From Williamsoniiplasma lucivorax ATCC 49196 (lineage in GTDB: Bacteria > Bacillota_I > Bacilli_A > Mycoplasmatales > Mycoplasmataceae): a stretch of DNA of 55,750 nucleotides. The stretch covers positions 1 through 55,750 of the forward strand of contig NZ_JADH01000009.1 of NCBI RefSeq assembly GCF_000518285.1, given 5' to 3'. This document shows, in pieces, positions 5,237 through 55,462 of this stretch. The position numbers and the translations under genes were made by a program. The notes beneath the pieces are model-generated. The model was given only the letters and a program-made list of their open reading frames with translations, searched no databases and was not told the DNA's origin. The first letter of the stretch is position 1, and each line of letters starts with the position of its first letter.

Positions 5237-7018
5237 TTATTTTTTTGGGTTTAAAAATTCACCACTAATATTAAGTTTGAATTCAAAAACATTTCGATCG
5301 CTTGGATGCAGAATTTTTTTAATTGGATGTTGACCCTCATTATCTTTTAATGTGTATGCAACTGATTTAACAATAATTCTCATTTCTTCAGCTGTTTGTA
5401 AGTTTTCTGGGGTCAATTTTGTTCAGTTTTTATCATGTAAAACTTGAATTTCAGCCTCAAATTTATCTAATGTCATTTGGACATGATCATCAAAATTTGC
5501 ACTTGTGTCCATTGCTAAAAGCATTTTAATTAAGCTAGAACCTAATAATTTACCAATTGGTAGTTCAAAATCTCTAATTGCGCCACCTAGTAAAGTAGCT
5601 TTTACGACACTATTTTCTTGAATTGCAGCTAAACCAAAAATAATTTTAATTAATTCTGATGGTTCAATTAACACGTTAAATGGTATATAGTTTTTGCCTG
5701 CAATTGTTTTTTCAAAGAAAGCAAAATTAGCTTCTTGCATACCAACTATGTTTAAGTAAAATTCTAATGGTTGACCTTGAGTGATTTGTTTACCATCCTT
5801 GTCTTTTCAACCTTCTAATAAAAAGAATAAAATCGCTTCGAAATTAGATTTAAACTCAACTTTTTTGTCCTTATTATCTTTAATGTTCTCAAACAATTCA
5901 CCATAGCCATCATCATTGTAAGATGTTGGTTTAGAGACAATATATTTTAATAAATTTGAGATTAAGTCCTTATTTGGTTGATTATTAATAAAGTTTTTAA
6001 AATTAATAATTACTGGCATTATGTTGCTAACTATTTTTTCAAGACTTGTTTTTAACATACCTTTAATTATCAATTCCTGTTGGGCACCCATTATAGACAA
6101 TTGGAAACTTGTGTTTAGTTCTAGTTTGATTTCTTTAGTTCAAATTTCGTTTGCGAAACTTTTTACCATATCAAATAAACCATGCATTGTTTTATAATCA
6201 GAATCTTGTTCACTAAAATTGGTTGGAATTTTTGTTGGAATTATTTTATCAACAAGCAAACCAACAAATTTTAAAAATTCGTTAAGAGATTGCCCTCCAA
6301 CCATTGGAAGTGAATCTGGAATTTTAATGTTACCAGCCTCTTTAAAAATCCCTTGTTCTAATGACTGAATTATATCTTTACCTTGTTTTAAGTATTCAGA
6401 AGCATAAGGAAGGCTTCAACCATCAGCTTTAATAACTTCATCATTATATTTAACATCAGCTTTTAGATTTCCAAGGGTGATAACATCATTTCCAAGTTTT
6501 GCAAATTGATTTTCCTTAATTGTAATGGTTAATTTTTCAAGGTTTAAATTAGCTATTTTTGCTTTCAAAAATGTTTTTAAGGCTTGAACAACGGCATTAT
6601 GATTTTGATCTTCCACTTCATTTAAAGCTATCTTAGTTGGAATTAAAAGTGGGTTATTGGCATTAATTGCATTTAATTTTTTACTAATCGCCCCTTTAAT
6701 AATTTCTGGGTTTTCTGGAACATTAATTGTTTTTAATAATTTTTCTTTAGCAACTTTTAATTCTGCAAGTGCTTTAATTGCTTCTTCATTGTTTTTAATA
6801 TTTTGAAATTTTTCGATTAATTGTTTGATTTCTTTCAAACCTTTAGCATTTGGTTCTCTACTTTTTTCTTGTTCTTTAATCATTTCCCCAATACTTGCTA
6901 ATTCTTTTTTTAGTTCATCAACTTTGTCATTTTTTGTACCTTTATCACAAGCTACCACAGTTGCAGCACTACTCGCCACTACTCCTAAACTTCCTAATAT
7001 CATTAATAATTTTTTCAT
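5237..7018 (-). CDS. Large surface lipoprotein, paralogue B
   Basis: 593 residues. The leader MKKLLMILGSLGVVASSAATVVAC has a lipobox Cys24. A charged helical segment follows (VDELKKELASIGEMIKEQEK), then the same mixed alpha/beta body as paralogue A, with matching blocks such as SYNDDGYGELF against SYNRDGYAEAF and the C-terminal SGEFLNPKK against DGSFLRPK. No enzyme motif is visible, so it is described only as a surface lipoprotein. The ribosome site is AGGAGGGACTT then ATG. The reading frame crosses several UGA Trp codons. Tandem same-strand arrangement with separate terminators indicates gene duplication with each copy transcribed on its own. Confidence 0.88.
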
Positions 7019-9961: not shown

Positions 9962-10450
9962 TTAGGCGTTTTTTTGGAAAAATTTATCGTTAACCTTAAT
10001 AATATGTTTCCAATGTGTTAAATGTTTATCAATTGACTTATGATCTTCGATTTTTTCTAATACAAAAAATCGTAGATCATCAACTGTTTGATTTGTATAT
10101 TTTAAATATTGAAGAAGATTATGATCTTGTTCAATATTTTGATTAAACTTGATTAATTCTTCTTTGAAGTTGTGAGTAGCAATTAATTTCATCGGAATGA
10201 AATCATCATCAAATGTTCATTTTTTACCAGCAACCATTAATAAAATAATTGGTTGGTCAACATTTTTTAAATGATCAATTTGGTTTAATTTGATCGCATC
10301 TCTTTGTCTTAAGTTGGTATATCATTTTTGTTCACGATGAGTTTTTGATAGCTTGGCACGCATTCATAATGATGAAAAAGCAAATCAAAGACTTGAGATA
10401 AATGCAAAAATAAATAAGATTACCACAATTAGCCAAACTCATCATTCCAT
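9962..10450 (-). CDS. Membrane-anchored hypothetical protein
   Basis: 162 residues. One N-terminal membrane helix (about 3-26, VWLIVVILFIFAFISSLWFAF) is followed by a basic stop-transfer region and a soluble, mostly helical cytoplasmic part (ILLMVAGKKWTFDDDFIP, then DHNLLQYLKYTNQTVDDLRFFVLEKIEDHKS). Six UGA Trp codons lie in the first 90 codons, so only the last 76 residues appear under the standard code. The start ATG follows AGAGGTAATGTT. It is the first gene of the group reading into the small membrane protein and the PTS permease. No domain recognised. Confidence 0.7.
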
Positions 10451-10672: not shown

Positions 10673-10972
10673 TTATTTTTTGTCTTCTTCAGTTCCAGGT
10701 GTTTCAGGATCTGTGGTTCCACCTTCTGTTTCTGGGTCAGTTCCGTTTTCTTCTCCTTCAGTTCCGTTTCCTTCTCCTTCAGTTCCGTTTCCTTCTCCTT
10801 CAGTTCCGTTTCCTTCTCCGTCAGTTCCGTTTCCTTCTCCGTCAGTTCCGTTTCCTTCTCCGTCTGGTTTACCAGTATCTTGTGTTGTTTCTGTTGGACC
10901 ACAAGCTACAACAGTTGCAGCAGTTCCAGCTACCAGCCCAAATGAACCTAATAATGTTAATAATTTTTTCAT
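10673..10972 (-). CDS. Small acidic repeat lipoprotein
   Basis: 99 residues. The leader MKKLLTLLGSFGLVAGTAATVVAC has a lipobox Cys24. The whole mature part is low complexity: six consecutive 7-residue repeats of the form (D/E)GE(G/E)NGT, then DPETEGGTTDPETPGTEEDKK. The mature protein is strongly acidic and surely unstructured. It resembles size-variable surface antigens of Mollicutes in design, but no homologue can be named. Ribosome site GGAAGATAATAAA then ATG. A well-formed promoter lies 60-90 nt upstream and a terminator directly downstream, so it is a single-gene unit. Confidence 0.85.
   Translation of the reverse strand: MKKLLTLLGSFGLVAGTAATVVACGPTETTQDTGKPDGEGNGTDGEGNGTDGEGNGTEGEGNGTEGEGNGTEGEENGTDPETEGGTTDPETPGTEEDKK
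10740..10865. repeat. Six tandem 21-bp repeats inside the lipoprotein gene
   Basis: Units begin at 10740, 10761, 10782, 10803, 10824 and 10845. The plus-strand unit is GTTCCGTTTCCTTCTCC followed by TTCA or GTCA, with single-base variants. Because 21 is a multiple of three, gain or loss of units keeps the frame, and most other frames stay open too, which explains the overlapping false ORFs on both strands. Confidence 0.95.
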
Positions 10973-11030
10973 TTTATTATCTTCCTTTTCTTTCCTATTC
11001 TCTTATTCTTTTAATTAGAATAACCATTTG

Positions 11031-11059
11031 ATTGTCTTATTTTTTTATTTTTTTGTCAA
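11031..11059 (-). promoter_or_regulatory. Promoter of the repeat lipoprotein
   Basis: On the minus strand: consensus -35 TTGACA (11054-11059), a 17-nt A-rich spacer with two 7-A runs, and -10 GACAAT (11031-11036). The start codon is 58 nt downstream. The homopolymer-filled spacer is a possible site of length variation. Confidence 0.6.
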
Positions 11060-11220
11060 GTCAAAATTTTTCAAAAATGGAAAAATTTTCTAAAAAAAGG
11101 GCAAAAAAGGGCATTTTTTAAAGAAAAAATACAAAAAAAATGAAAAATTTTATTTTTAAGCAATAAAATTTTTTCATTTTTGATCGGTCTTTTTTTTGTT
11201 CTTTTTTGCAAAATTTTGCT

Positions 11221-44940: not shown

Positions 44941-45226
44941 TTTTTTGTTCCTTTCTCGAGAGTGTCTCGTGCACTCATTGTGTAATTTTATCTTTTTTAC
45001 AAAAAAATACATAATTTAAAAATATGACTTTTTTTGATAAAAAAAACAATTTTTGCCCTTAAATTTGGGATTTTGACCAAAAAAATACAAATTTTTCATC
45101 AAAAAAAGGATATTGTGTTTCTTATTTGCCAAAATTCTTAAGAATTTTGAAATTAATAAATTTTTTAAATTTTTTAAATTTTTTAAATAAGTTCTTAATC
45201 AATATGCCTCGGTGATAAAGATCTTG
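44941..45226. other. AT-rich intergenic region upstream of the ABC genes
   Basis: Mainly long A and T runs with an imperfect repeat of AAATTTTTT near 45160-45186. GAGTG...CACTC is an inverted repeat at 44960-44976, orientated opposite to the CIRCE heat-shock operator. No gene was seen on either strand. Confidence 0.4.
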
Positions 45227-52561: not shown

Positions 52562-53185
52562 CTACTTAGTACCAAAGATTCGATCCCCAGCATCACCAAG
52601 ACCTGGAACGATATATCCTTTCTCATCTAATTTTTCATCTAATGCTGCTGCATAGATTTCAATTTCGGGATGAGCTTTTTGTAAAGCCTTAACCCCTTCA
52701 GGAGCCGCCACTAAACAAATGAACTTAATTTGTTTAGCACCCCATTTCTTGACAATGTCAATGGCAGTGATGGCACTCCCTCCAGTAGCTAACATTGGAT
52801 CAACAATTAAAGTATAAGCTTCAGTTATGTCTTTTGTGGTTTTAGCGAAATATTGGTGTGTTTTTAAAGTTTCTTCATCACGATATAAACCAATATGAGC
52901 AATACGAGCAGTTGGGATTAATTGTTGAATCCCGCTAACCATTCCTAACCCAGCTCTTAAGATTGGCACAATCACAACTGGCATGTCAATCGTGAAACCA
53001 TAAGTTTTACCCATCGGTGTATTTATGCTTATTTTGCTTACCGGAATATCACGAGCAATTTCATAAACCATTAGCCCAGCAATTTCATTAAGGTTTTCTC
53101 TAAAATCTTTTGTTGAGGTATCTGATTTTCTCATTCTTGTTAGTTTGTCCAAAATTAATGGATGTTTGAATTCTGTAAAAGCCAT
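52562..53185 (-). CDS. upp: Uracil phosphoribosyltransferase
   Basis: 207 residues. Makes UMP from uracil and PRPP. The PRPP motif is [16 protein letters not shown] (about 130-145); [10 protein letters not shown] at about 80-89; C-terminal uracil-binding [17 protein letters not shown]. The start is the ATG at 53185 behind AAGGAGAAAAAA; the longer ORF upstream has no ribosome site. It precedes the atp operon by 93 nt with no clear terminator in between, the arrangement known from Bacillus, so read-through into atp is likely. Confidence 0.96.
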
Positions 53186-53207
53186 TTTTTTCTCCTTATT
53201 CTGTTTA

Positions 53208-53236
53208 ATCATAAAACAATAAAAACCCAACTACAA
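53208..53236 (-). promoter_or_regulatory. Probable promoter of upp (and atp operon)
   Basis: On the minus strand: -35 TTGTAG (53231-53236), 17-nt spacer, -10 TATGAT (53208-53213), 22 nt before the upp ATG. Confidence 0.5.
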
Positions 53237-53550
53237 ACAAATTATTCTTTAAATTTAATTTTATTTTTTAAAATCTTGATTAAGATTTTGGGTCTAAAAT
53301 TAATAATCAATTTTGTGTTTTTTTAATCATTGCTTTCTTCAAAAAAATAAAAAACTTTAGATGAGGTGAATAAAATTCATGGTATAAAAATAATCAATAC
53401 CTATAAGCTATATGAATATTACTGCATTGTTTTGATGTTTTAGATCTTAATGGTTAAGAAACAAAAATGAGCCTTTATTTCGTTAAAAGTTGTAAAATAA
53501 GTTTTTTTAACTAAAATCTTTTTATCATTGAAATTAATCACCGATTGCAA

Positions 53551-53659
53551 AATCAAAAATCAAATTAAAACCAAATTAAAACCATAAAAAACCTTATAAA
53601 ATAAGGGTTAAATGGTGATTGTTCCAAAATTTAATCAATCAAATATCAAATCAAAAACT
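53551..53659 (+). repeat. Dispersed intergenic repeat, copy 1
   Basis: The core from 53581 reads ACCATAAAAAACC, then AAATAAGGGTTAAATGGTGATT. It is flanked on both sides by AATCAAA-type repeats. It has a local stem AACCTTAT/ATAAGGGTT. Confidence 0.7.
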
Positions 53660-54237
53660 ATCTCTTTATGTCATAATAGCCATTGAAAAACGGACTAAAA
53701 AAACATATTTTGTCCAATATCAAAAAAACTTGATATCCTTTTTTTATTGAAATTTTGTTTTTGCATTTCTGTTATTGGTGATCAAAAATGATAGTCCTGG
53801 TTTGCATTAAATAATGCTTCTTCATCTTCTTCTCGATTGATTAGTTTAGTTAATGACATCTATTAGCACTAACTAAGGGTGAAACAGATAGATCCACATT
53901 TATTTCTTTTCATACCCAGCTTAATCGTCATTTAACCCCCATAAATACGTATTTAAAATACAATGATTCGACATTAATTTAAATTATTGTTAACTAATTA
54001 CTTATTCTTTGTCTTTTAAAATTTAAGTAACTGCATTTTAATATTTAATAAAGATAGACCATCACTAATGAGTTATTTAAACCCCTAACTCTAGTTTTGG
54101 ATATTAATTTAACTAAACTTTATACTTATTGAAATGATGAAAGAACAACCTAAATAAGCAAATAAAAACATAGGAATTTAGCTTTAGTATTTTTGTTTTT
54201 TCACCCCTTTACTTGCTTCATTTAAGAGTTAGTCTCC

Positions 54238-54350
54238 AAACCAAAAGATAATCAAAAACCAATCAAAAACCAAAAAAATCACCATAAAATAAGGGTTAAG
54301 TGGTGGTTGGTACCAAAAGAAACCAATCAAAAACCAATCAAAAATTAATC
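54238..54350 (+). repeat. Dispersed intergenic repeat, copy 2
   Basis: AAAAGATAATCAAAAACC, then CACCATAAAATAAGGGTTAA, GTGGTGGTTGGTACCAAAA and two AACCAATCAAAA units. CACCA and TGGTG form a stem around the conserved loop. Confidence 0.75.
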
Positions 54351-54706
54351 TTATAAGTTTTAAATTTAATTCTGAATACTCATAATAAGGATGTTTTTTT
54401 AATAATGTGCGCTCTGAAATGCTTAAATATAAGTTATATTCTTAGTTTTTTATTTACTATATTTCACCTGTTTTTATTTAACAAAACATTAGTTTATTGC
54501 CTATTTATGAAACATTTTTGCATATCTAGTACTCTATTTATTGATTTCTATTTCCTAGTTTTCAAACCGCTTAATTTTAAAGTGGTGATCTTTAACCCTT
54601 AAAAATGTGCTTTATTTTTGACAAATTTTATTTAATTTATTTCAGTTTTTAGTAATTAATTTAATTTTAGACTTTTGTATGTTGGTGAAAAAATTAAACA
54701 TATAAC

Positions 54707-54812
54707 CAACAAGATAATCAAAAATCAAGTTTCAACCATAAAAACCACCATAAAATAGGGGTTAAATGATGGTTTGTAATCAAATATACCAATCAAAAAA
54801 TAAACCAAAAAT
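54707..54812 (+). repeat. Dispersed intergenic repeat, copy 3
   Basis: CAAGATAATCAAAAATC, then CCACCATAAAATAGGGGTTAA and ATGATGGTTTGTA, then ACCAATCAAAAAATAAACC. It shares more than 80% of the core positions with copy 2 by eye. Confidence 0.75.
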
Positions 54813-54938
54813 CATTAAAAAGTAAATTTTTAAAAAGAAATCAATGGCTTTTAAACCATTGATTTCTTAAATTAATAAAGATAAATAATCGTAATTTACT
54901 GATGAATAAGTTTTTGGTAGTTCACCAATTTACATTCT

Positions 54939-55430
54939 TTATTCAGTTGTGAAAGTTACAATTACTTCACCTTTGTGAGTTCCTGAATCGGTTTTTACTT
55001 TTATTGTTGCAGAATCACCACTTGGATAAGTTTGAATTTCTAAATCACTAGCAAGTAAATCTTTATCAGGGTTTTGATCGATAAATTCCTGAATAATGGT
55101 TGCTTTTTGATTATCATTTAATTGTCCCAAATCTAAGTCTAGTCCTGAAATTGTGCTAATAGTTTTACGAACTTGATAATTAACTTGCACACTACCTTTA
55201 TGAGTGTTTAATGTAGTTTTCACACCAATTGTCGCACTAGTGGTGTCTGGTTCGTTTATGATTTCGATATCACCAATATCAACACCCTTACCTCTGTTTT
55301 GTTGAATAAATGCATTAATAATGGTTGCTTTTTGATTATCATTTAATGGACCTAGATCAATAGTTAAATCCTCAGCTTGATTAATATGTTTTTTTAGCAC
55401 CTCAATAGTAAACACGGAAAAAATAATTCT
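54939..55430 (-). pseudogene. Truncated repeat-type surface protein cut by an IS element
   Basis: About 160 residues of open frame, no signal peptide or lipobox. Two tandem ~70-residue repeats: (I/L)DLG(P/Q)LNDNQKATII, then about 20 residues, then SATI(G/K)VKT and THKG(S/E)V(Q/I)V. The apparent start at 55436 (MCRIIFSVF) lies in sequence belonging to the IS end, so the true N-terminus has been lost or moved away. It is unlikely to be exported now. The repeat has the same skeleton as that in the protein at 27966 (LG-x(n)-TI-x(n)-N-P-x(n)-G-x-V-x-V). The exact junction cannot be placed by eye; somewhere in 55405-55436. Confidence 0.65.
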
Positions 55431-55462
55431 ACACAATCAAAAAAGAAAGTGTGGAATTTTTT

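Follow-up and report, generated by a model that had tools for sequence, protein, structure and literature searches.

Two clusters of a non-coding repeat unit of about 105 bp occur in the genome of Williamsoniiplasma lucivorax ATCC 49196, each comprising three units in a single orientation. One cluster is located upstream of upp in the window, i.e. the whole stretch of 55,750 nucleotides that was analysed, and the other on contig C5. Units contain direct repeats with an 11-bp period around a conserved core, and they are tentatively read here as an iteron-like, non-coding array of putative protein-binding DNA sites, although inert duplicated DNA has to be considered as a close rival. Below, G000 denotes the W. 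lucivorax genome analysed, G003 the nearest relative compared and C1-C9 the contigs; W1, W2 and W3 are units 1, 2 and 3 of the window, and the C5 units are their paralogues on contig C5.

Two clusters of repeat units

The window cluster resides in an intergenic module of 1,708 bp (positions 53231-54938), which contains no ORF of at least 80 amino acids. It is bordered by upp, encoding uracil phosphoribosyltransferase (52562-53185, minus strand; PF14681, 2e-72) and located downstream of the module, and by a minus-strand ORF without Pfam family (54939-55436). The survey of G000 covered 353,519 bp, namely the window, contig C5 in full and parts of C1-C4; among these, this is the longest ORF-free gap, followed by the gap at the second locus on C5 (1,473 bp) and one of 866 bp. 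A repeat search returned a single family with three direct copies (53550-53661, 54238-54349 and 54704-54815), each 112 nt long and spaced by 688 and 466 nt, with copies 1 and 3 sharing 71% and 77% identity with copy 2. W1 was delimited by the repeat search, the genome search and a sequence model (about 53551-53660); W2 (54238-54349) and W3 (54704-54815) are likewise on the plus strand. Pairwise blastn within 53201-54950 connected the three units with E-values of 9e-22, 8e-16 and 6e-11. A 95-column ungapped matrix built from the units, and thus including the three window copies themselves, scored 107-132 bits at these copies, compared with a maximum of -15.4 bits among 568,716 background placements on both strands of 15 stretches of G000. 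The repeat is real and chance is excluded; the three copies of about 105 bp that a sequence-only reading had placed at 53551, 54238 and 54707 are borne out.

When the whole draft genome (1,103,092 bases in 31 contigs) was searched with unit 1, strong matches were confined to the window and contig C5, the latter with E-values of 2e-20 and 3e-17. The search yielded 35 matches at E <= 1, and the other 30 were 42 bp or shorter with E-values of at least 0.0046. Using both whole modules as queries revealed no third locus in G000, and the leftover matches were short (E at least 6e-5). The sequence-only reading had considered that without further copies anywhere and without conservation the repeat would be a local duplication of AT-rich DNA; the cluster on C5 speaks against this.

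On C5, the cluster is flanked by a glpF-type gene (glycerol facilitator, PF00230) and by serS (PF02403, PF00587). Its two strong units (L011:5282-5386 and L011:5930-6036) match the window cluster in order and orientation, and a degenerate unit, C5_1, precedes them in register at L011:4653. C5_1 was missed by the sequence model, yet its 8.1 bits on the ungapped matrix exceed every one of the background placements. Six units are therefore present in total. The closest pairs are W2 and C5 unit 2 (87% over 99 ungapped columns) and W3 and C5 unit 3 (78%), whereas W1 is nearest to C5 unit 2 (77%). Since units 2 and 3 each pair best with their namesakes, the triplet probably predates the copying of the locus. 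An extended block around W2 (54191-54406, plus strand) is also kept at the second locus, with 83% identity over 218 aligned columns. When leader and inter-unit segments were compared between and within the loci, a single pair exceeded z 3: a block of 78 bp in the spacer between units 1 and 2 of the window (53914-53991, plus strand), which recurs between units 2 and 3 on C5 (z 14). Because this block occupies different spacers at the two loci, simple copying fails to explain its distribution.

Architecture of the repeat unit

The five strong units align without gaps over 99 columns, of which 53 are invariant, and are 67-87% identical. Their core of approx. 34 bp is centred around ATAAAATAAGGGTTAAATGGTG and forms an imperfect inverted repeat, CACCAT...ATGGTG. 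On the plus strand of the window, the cores occupy 53589-53622 in W1 (34 bp, alignment columns 37-70; 44.2 bits), 54277-54310 in W2 (CACCAT...GTGGTG; 52.0 bits) and 54743-54776 in W3 (47.7 bits). The CACCA/TGGTG stem previously noticed in copies 2 and 3 is present, with one mismatch in copy 3, and is broken in copy 1. Opposite-strand look-alikes of the core had also been proposed, and these proved weak: one minus-strand match at 53921-53954 reaches 5.9 bits, a score attained at about 0.33 per 10,000 background positions, and overlaps the recurring 78-bp block, and the top eight minus-strand core matches of the module include neither of the look-alikes near 54080 and 54600.

The core sits between flanks of same-strand AATCAAAAACC-type A-tract repeats. 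In W2, the left flank (54239-54276, plus strand) carries such direct repeats with an 11-bp period (54250, 54261), and the right flank (54316-54347, plus strand) carries CCAATCAAAA direct repeats with the same period (54323, 54334). Self-matching over all six units peaks at lags of 11 (z 6.2) and 12 (z 4.8), and secondary matrix matches occur exactly 11 bp on either side of the unit-2 matches. A dinucleotide wedge model places the predicted curvature of the six units in the 94th-99th percentile of the window when shifts of 20 bp to either side are allowed, and in the 91st-99th at a fixed start; their curvature is moderately above that of the window, and stronger peaks exist elsewhere in it. The most curved stretches of the window, 11054-11153 and 45015-45114 (ratios of 1.95 and 1.82 in the same model), are well above the units. 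The DnaA box TTAT[ACT]CACA is absent inside either module.

Distribution in other genomes

A sequence model run against W. lucivorax itself and 39 other genomes detected no unit elsewhere: some match at E <= 1 was obtained in 38 of the 40 genomes, but no genome other than G000 exceeded 20.0 bits, whereas the five strong units scored 66-83 bits. DNA searches returned matches of 23-42 bp in seven of 59 other relatives (E 2.6e-4 to 9.1e-4) and, among other genomes of the family, matches of 25-45 bp in seven of 59 (E 2.8e-5 to 7.9e-5). As none of them extends over more than a third of the query or amounts to a full unit, they are regarded as chance matches of AT-rich DNA. A genome contig collection, from which the record of G000 itself is possibly excluded, gave no match. 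Scanning this collection for upp retrieved 63 loci, which belong to distant Firmicutes and other bacteria and include no recognisable member of this family. Three partial pattern matches were obtained in viral contigs, the best of which (L099, 16.2 bits) covers only part of a unit, and plasmid and phage records yielded nothing beyond short matches, with best E-values of 0.05 and 0.2. The portions of the searched literature that were available, including those of PMC11567158, PMC4949242 and PMC3794156, contain no description of the repeat.

In G003, no copy is found at either homologous place, and the flanking genes upp and serS are 91% and 83% identical to their counterparts in G000. Other genes occupy the DNA upstream of upp in G003, and its short serS-glpF spacer, which measures about 155 bp from ORF to ORF, is free of units. 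Among the genomes searched, the repeat thus appears to be restricted to one species, and its absence from G003 makes an essential chromosomal role unlikely.

Possible protein-binding array or inert DNA

The 11-bp register, the gapless spacing, the directional core and the clustering of the units are best accommodated by a protein-bound DNA array. A non-coding element or protein-binding iterons had been suggested from the sequence alone; with the 11-bp period, the gapless spacing and the second locus, this is the best reading of the repeat, and its non-coding part stands, while the binding is predicted. Such an array would operate as follows: the AATCAAAAACC-type repeats, recurring every 11 bp, would place A-tracts on a single face of the helix, and a DNA-binding protein could bind cooperatively along each unit. 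The three units of a cluster may then draw together 1-1.5 kb of origin-proximal DNA in a single nucleoprotein complex, and this complex might serve local folding, segregation or the control of a distant promoter.

Somewhat less probable, but still a serious contender, is the possibility that the units are inert paralogous DNA. In this scenario, a once functional or mobile intergenic segment, e.g. from a plasmid or an integrated element, was triplicated, copied elsewhere and is now decaying without function. The occurrence in one species only, with a long match in none of the 59 other family genomes and none in the contig collection, is in line with such an origin, as are the bare serS-glpF spacer of G003 and the clear decay of C5_1; it is the restriction to one species together with the decayed sixth unit that keeps inert DNA close to the preferred reading. 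In addition, foreign DNA has entered G000, as indicated by a conjugation-type island on contig C5 that encodes ParA, SSB and a TraG-like ATPase. On the other hand, the units preserve their length and register, while the spacers are mostly unalignable. Furthermore, a full unit is absent from the phage and plasmid records and the viral contigs searched, and the 728 ORFs tested revealed no protein remnant in the spacers. The preservation of the units would point to selection, but it is a paralogous conservation within a single genome, and gene conversion or the separate insertion of units could mimic it. If the units are inert, they provide a clear case of coding mimicry over a few codons that is better explained by DNA anatomy.

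RNA and coding readings

It is unlikely that the units represent RNA regulatory elements or a family of untranslated RNAs read from the plus strand, in which a hairpin formed by the core would be flanked by unstructured repeats serving as sites for an RNA-binding protein. On the plus strand, five of the six units are more stably folded than the average shuffle (z -1.5 to -3.1), and a promoter-like pair follows unit 2 in the window (54359-54386) as well as on C5 (L011:5400-5427). However, the degenerate unit does not share this folding (z -0.06), and promoter-like and terminator-like sites are no more common than in shuffled sequences. On the minus strand, C5 unit 2 alone folds better than shuffles (z -2.3). 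Sliding the core partner reduces pairing to 27-67%, and thus the inverted repeat itself is real, but its pairing of 86.7% is matched by shuffled partners (87.0%), so that the core, as judged from five sequences with low power, shows no compensatory maintenance. RNAalifold predicts the same core helix with an unfavourable covariation term (+0.84). Neither locus has an Rfam match, and one sub-threshold match (E 0.13) falls outside the units. Neither a covarying helix nor a known family was therefore detected; as five sequences provide low power, the RNA reading is retained.

The suggestion that the units are fragments of a duplicated protein-coding gene is barely credible: although three differences within the seven-codon core KIRVKWW look synonymous, the proposed frame contains stops in three of the five strong units, codon-pair differences among them are 31 synonymous versus 135 nonsynonymous, the differences are spread over the codon phases (70/101/75; permutation p 0.38), and no homologous protein exists among the 728 ORFs. 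These comprised the ORF translations of G000 and G003, and tblastn against the modules gave two self-overlaps and otherwise weak chance matches (E 0.009-0.048). The synonymy of AAA/AAG and TGG/TGA, on which the suggestion was based, is literally correct, but holds over only about seven codons. Present coding is ruled out by the stops, the excess of nonsynonymous differences and the missing phase bias.

Comparison with known repeat systems

Like BOX, RUP and ERIC elements, which are modular, non-coding families of bacterial intergenic repeats with an inverted-repeat core, the units combine modularity and intergenic location with such a core. In contrast to these families, they are present in only six copies, arranged in two same-orientation triplets, and are not dispersed over the genome. 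Plasmid replication-origin iterons, which are usually 17-22 bp long, share with the units phased direct repeats in AT-rich DNA, but the units adjoin no replication gene and form three separated units instead of one tandem array. ParB-parS systems also rely on a few origin-proximal sites with a partly palindromic core; parS is a 16-bp palindrome, whereas the units are 105 bp long, and ParB (ParB_N, PF02195) matched in none of the four genus genomes, while the control matched in 10 of 14 genomes. For ParM (PF06406), neither the four genus genomes nor any control genome gave a match.

A close parallel in anatomy is parC, the centromere of the plasmid R1 ParMRC system, where 11-bp direct repeats (PMC3794156, PMC4949242) are clustered on the same strand, with each repeat forming one protein site and the repeats arranged in two sets per parC; ten ParR dimers occupy ten 11-bp iterons (PMC3794156). 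The units share same-strand direct repeats at 10-11 bp, as seen from the lag of 11 and the secondary matches at +-11 bp, and the arrangement in two sets. Unlike R1 parC, they contain only about two clear repeats per flank and a long conserved core, and are present as six units in two chromosomal clusters with no partner operon alongside. The module neighbours are upp, serS, the MIP-family (glpF-type) channel and the ORF without Pfam family, and do not include an operon of motor and adaptor. As an adjacent operon is missing, the units are not classed as parC-type.

The only ParA-like gene of G000 (AAA_31, C5:11557-12417), a type found above cut-off in one of the four genus genomes, was considered as a motor for the units and rejected, as no unit-like repeat lies beside its operon. 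The conjugation-type island on C5 (L174:6134-15516) encodes a 948-amino acid ATPase with a TraG P-loop domain, the ParA-like ATPase and SSB. A 114-amino acid protein encoded downstream of parA has no Pfam match and by eye resembles a ribbon-helix-helix centromere-binding protein. Palindromic TATGTA/TACATA motifs lie just upstream of the ParA gene (L174:12441-12464), with TATGTA occurring again inside the next gene, and possibly constitute an operator or partition site of the island.

Intergenic repeats of G003 were dismissed as relatives of the units. They resemble them as paralogous intergenic DNA of the same genus, but match the TPP riboswitch family (Rfam RF00059), and their flanking spacers align with the units no better than shuffled sequences. 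Two of these riboswitches precede paralogous membrane-protein genes (L195:8720-8808 and 10299-10387), and a third TPP-like stretch at L195 ~10819-10929 is absent from the Rfam list at the gathering score.

Position relative to the replication origin

The window between 30.5 and 53.2 kb is syntenic with 118.6-140.5 kb of G003, in which dnaA starts at C1:199,974; in G000, dnaA is located on C9. The end of C5, about 20 kb past the cluster, carries the homologue of the gene adjoining dnaN in G003. Judged by this synteny, both clusters are origin-proximal and flank dnaA at distances of about 60 kb and about 16 kb; if the synteny holds, their polarity with respect to the origin would be identical, which for two clusters has an even chance at random. 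A more specific version of the preferred protein-binding array, which we consider improbable, is a species-specific, origin-flanking array with a centromere-like or nucleoid-folding role in a mollicute without ParB, in which 105-bp triplets of the same polarity on opposite replichores would phase a putative protein on their 11-bp repeats. The organisation and segregation of the origin region in ParB-less bacteria with small genomes are poorly understood, and if a protein binds the units, they would provide a handle on these processes.

Additional observations

The minus-strand ORF bordering the window module (54939-55436) contains an internal 98-nt repeat with 74% identity. At its 3' end, an inverted repeat read by eye (54835-54868) is probably its terminator; it is absent from the list of a terminator scan. 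The contig end (55451-55750) holds the start of a plus-strand ORF, which by eye looks like the first ORF of an IS3-type transposase and has no Pfam match above cut-off; an insertion at this site may have interrupted the minus-strand gene and be the reason why the contig ends here. Elsewhere in G000, an intergenic inverted repeat, AACACATTCCAAGAATT...AATTCTTGGAATGTGTT, is found at L180 ~6134-6256 and L185 ~10912-11036 (74% over 125 bp), and is partly kept in G003 (L103 ~2820-2865).
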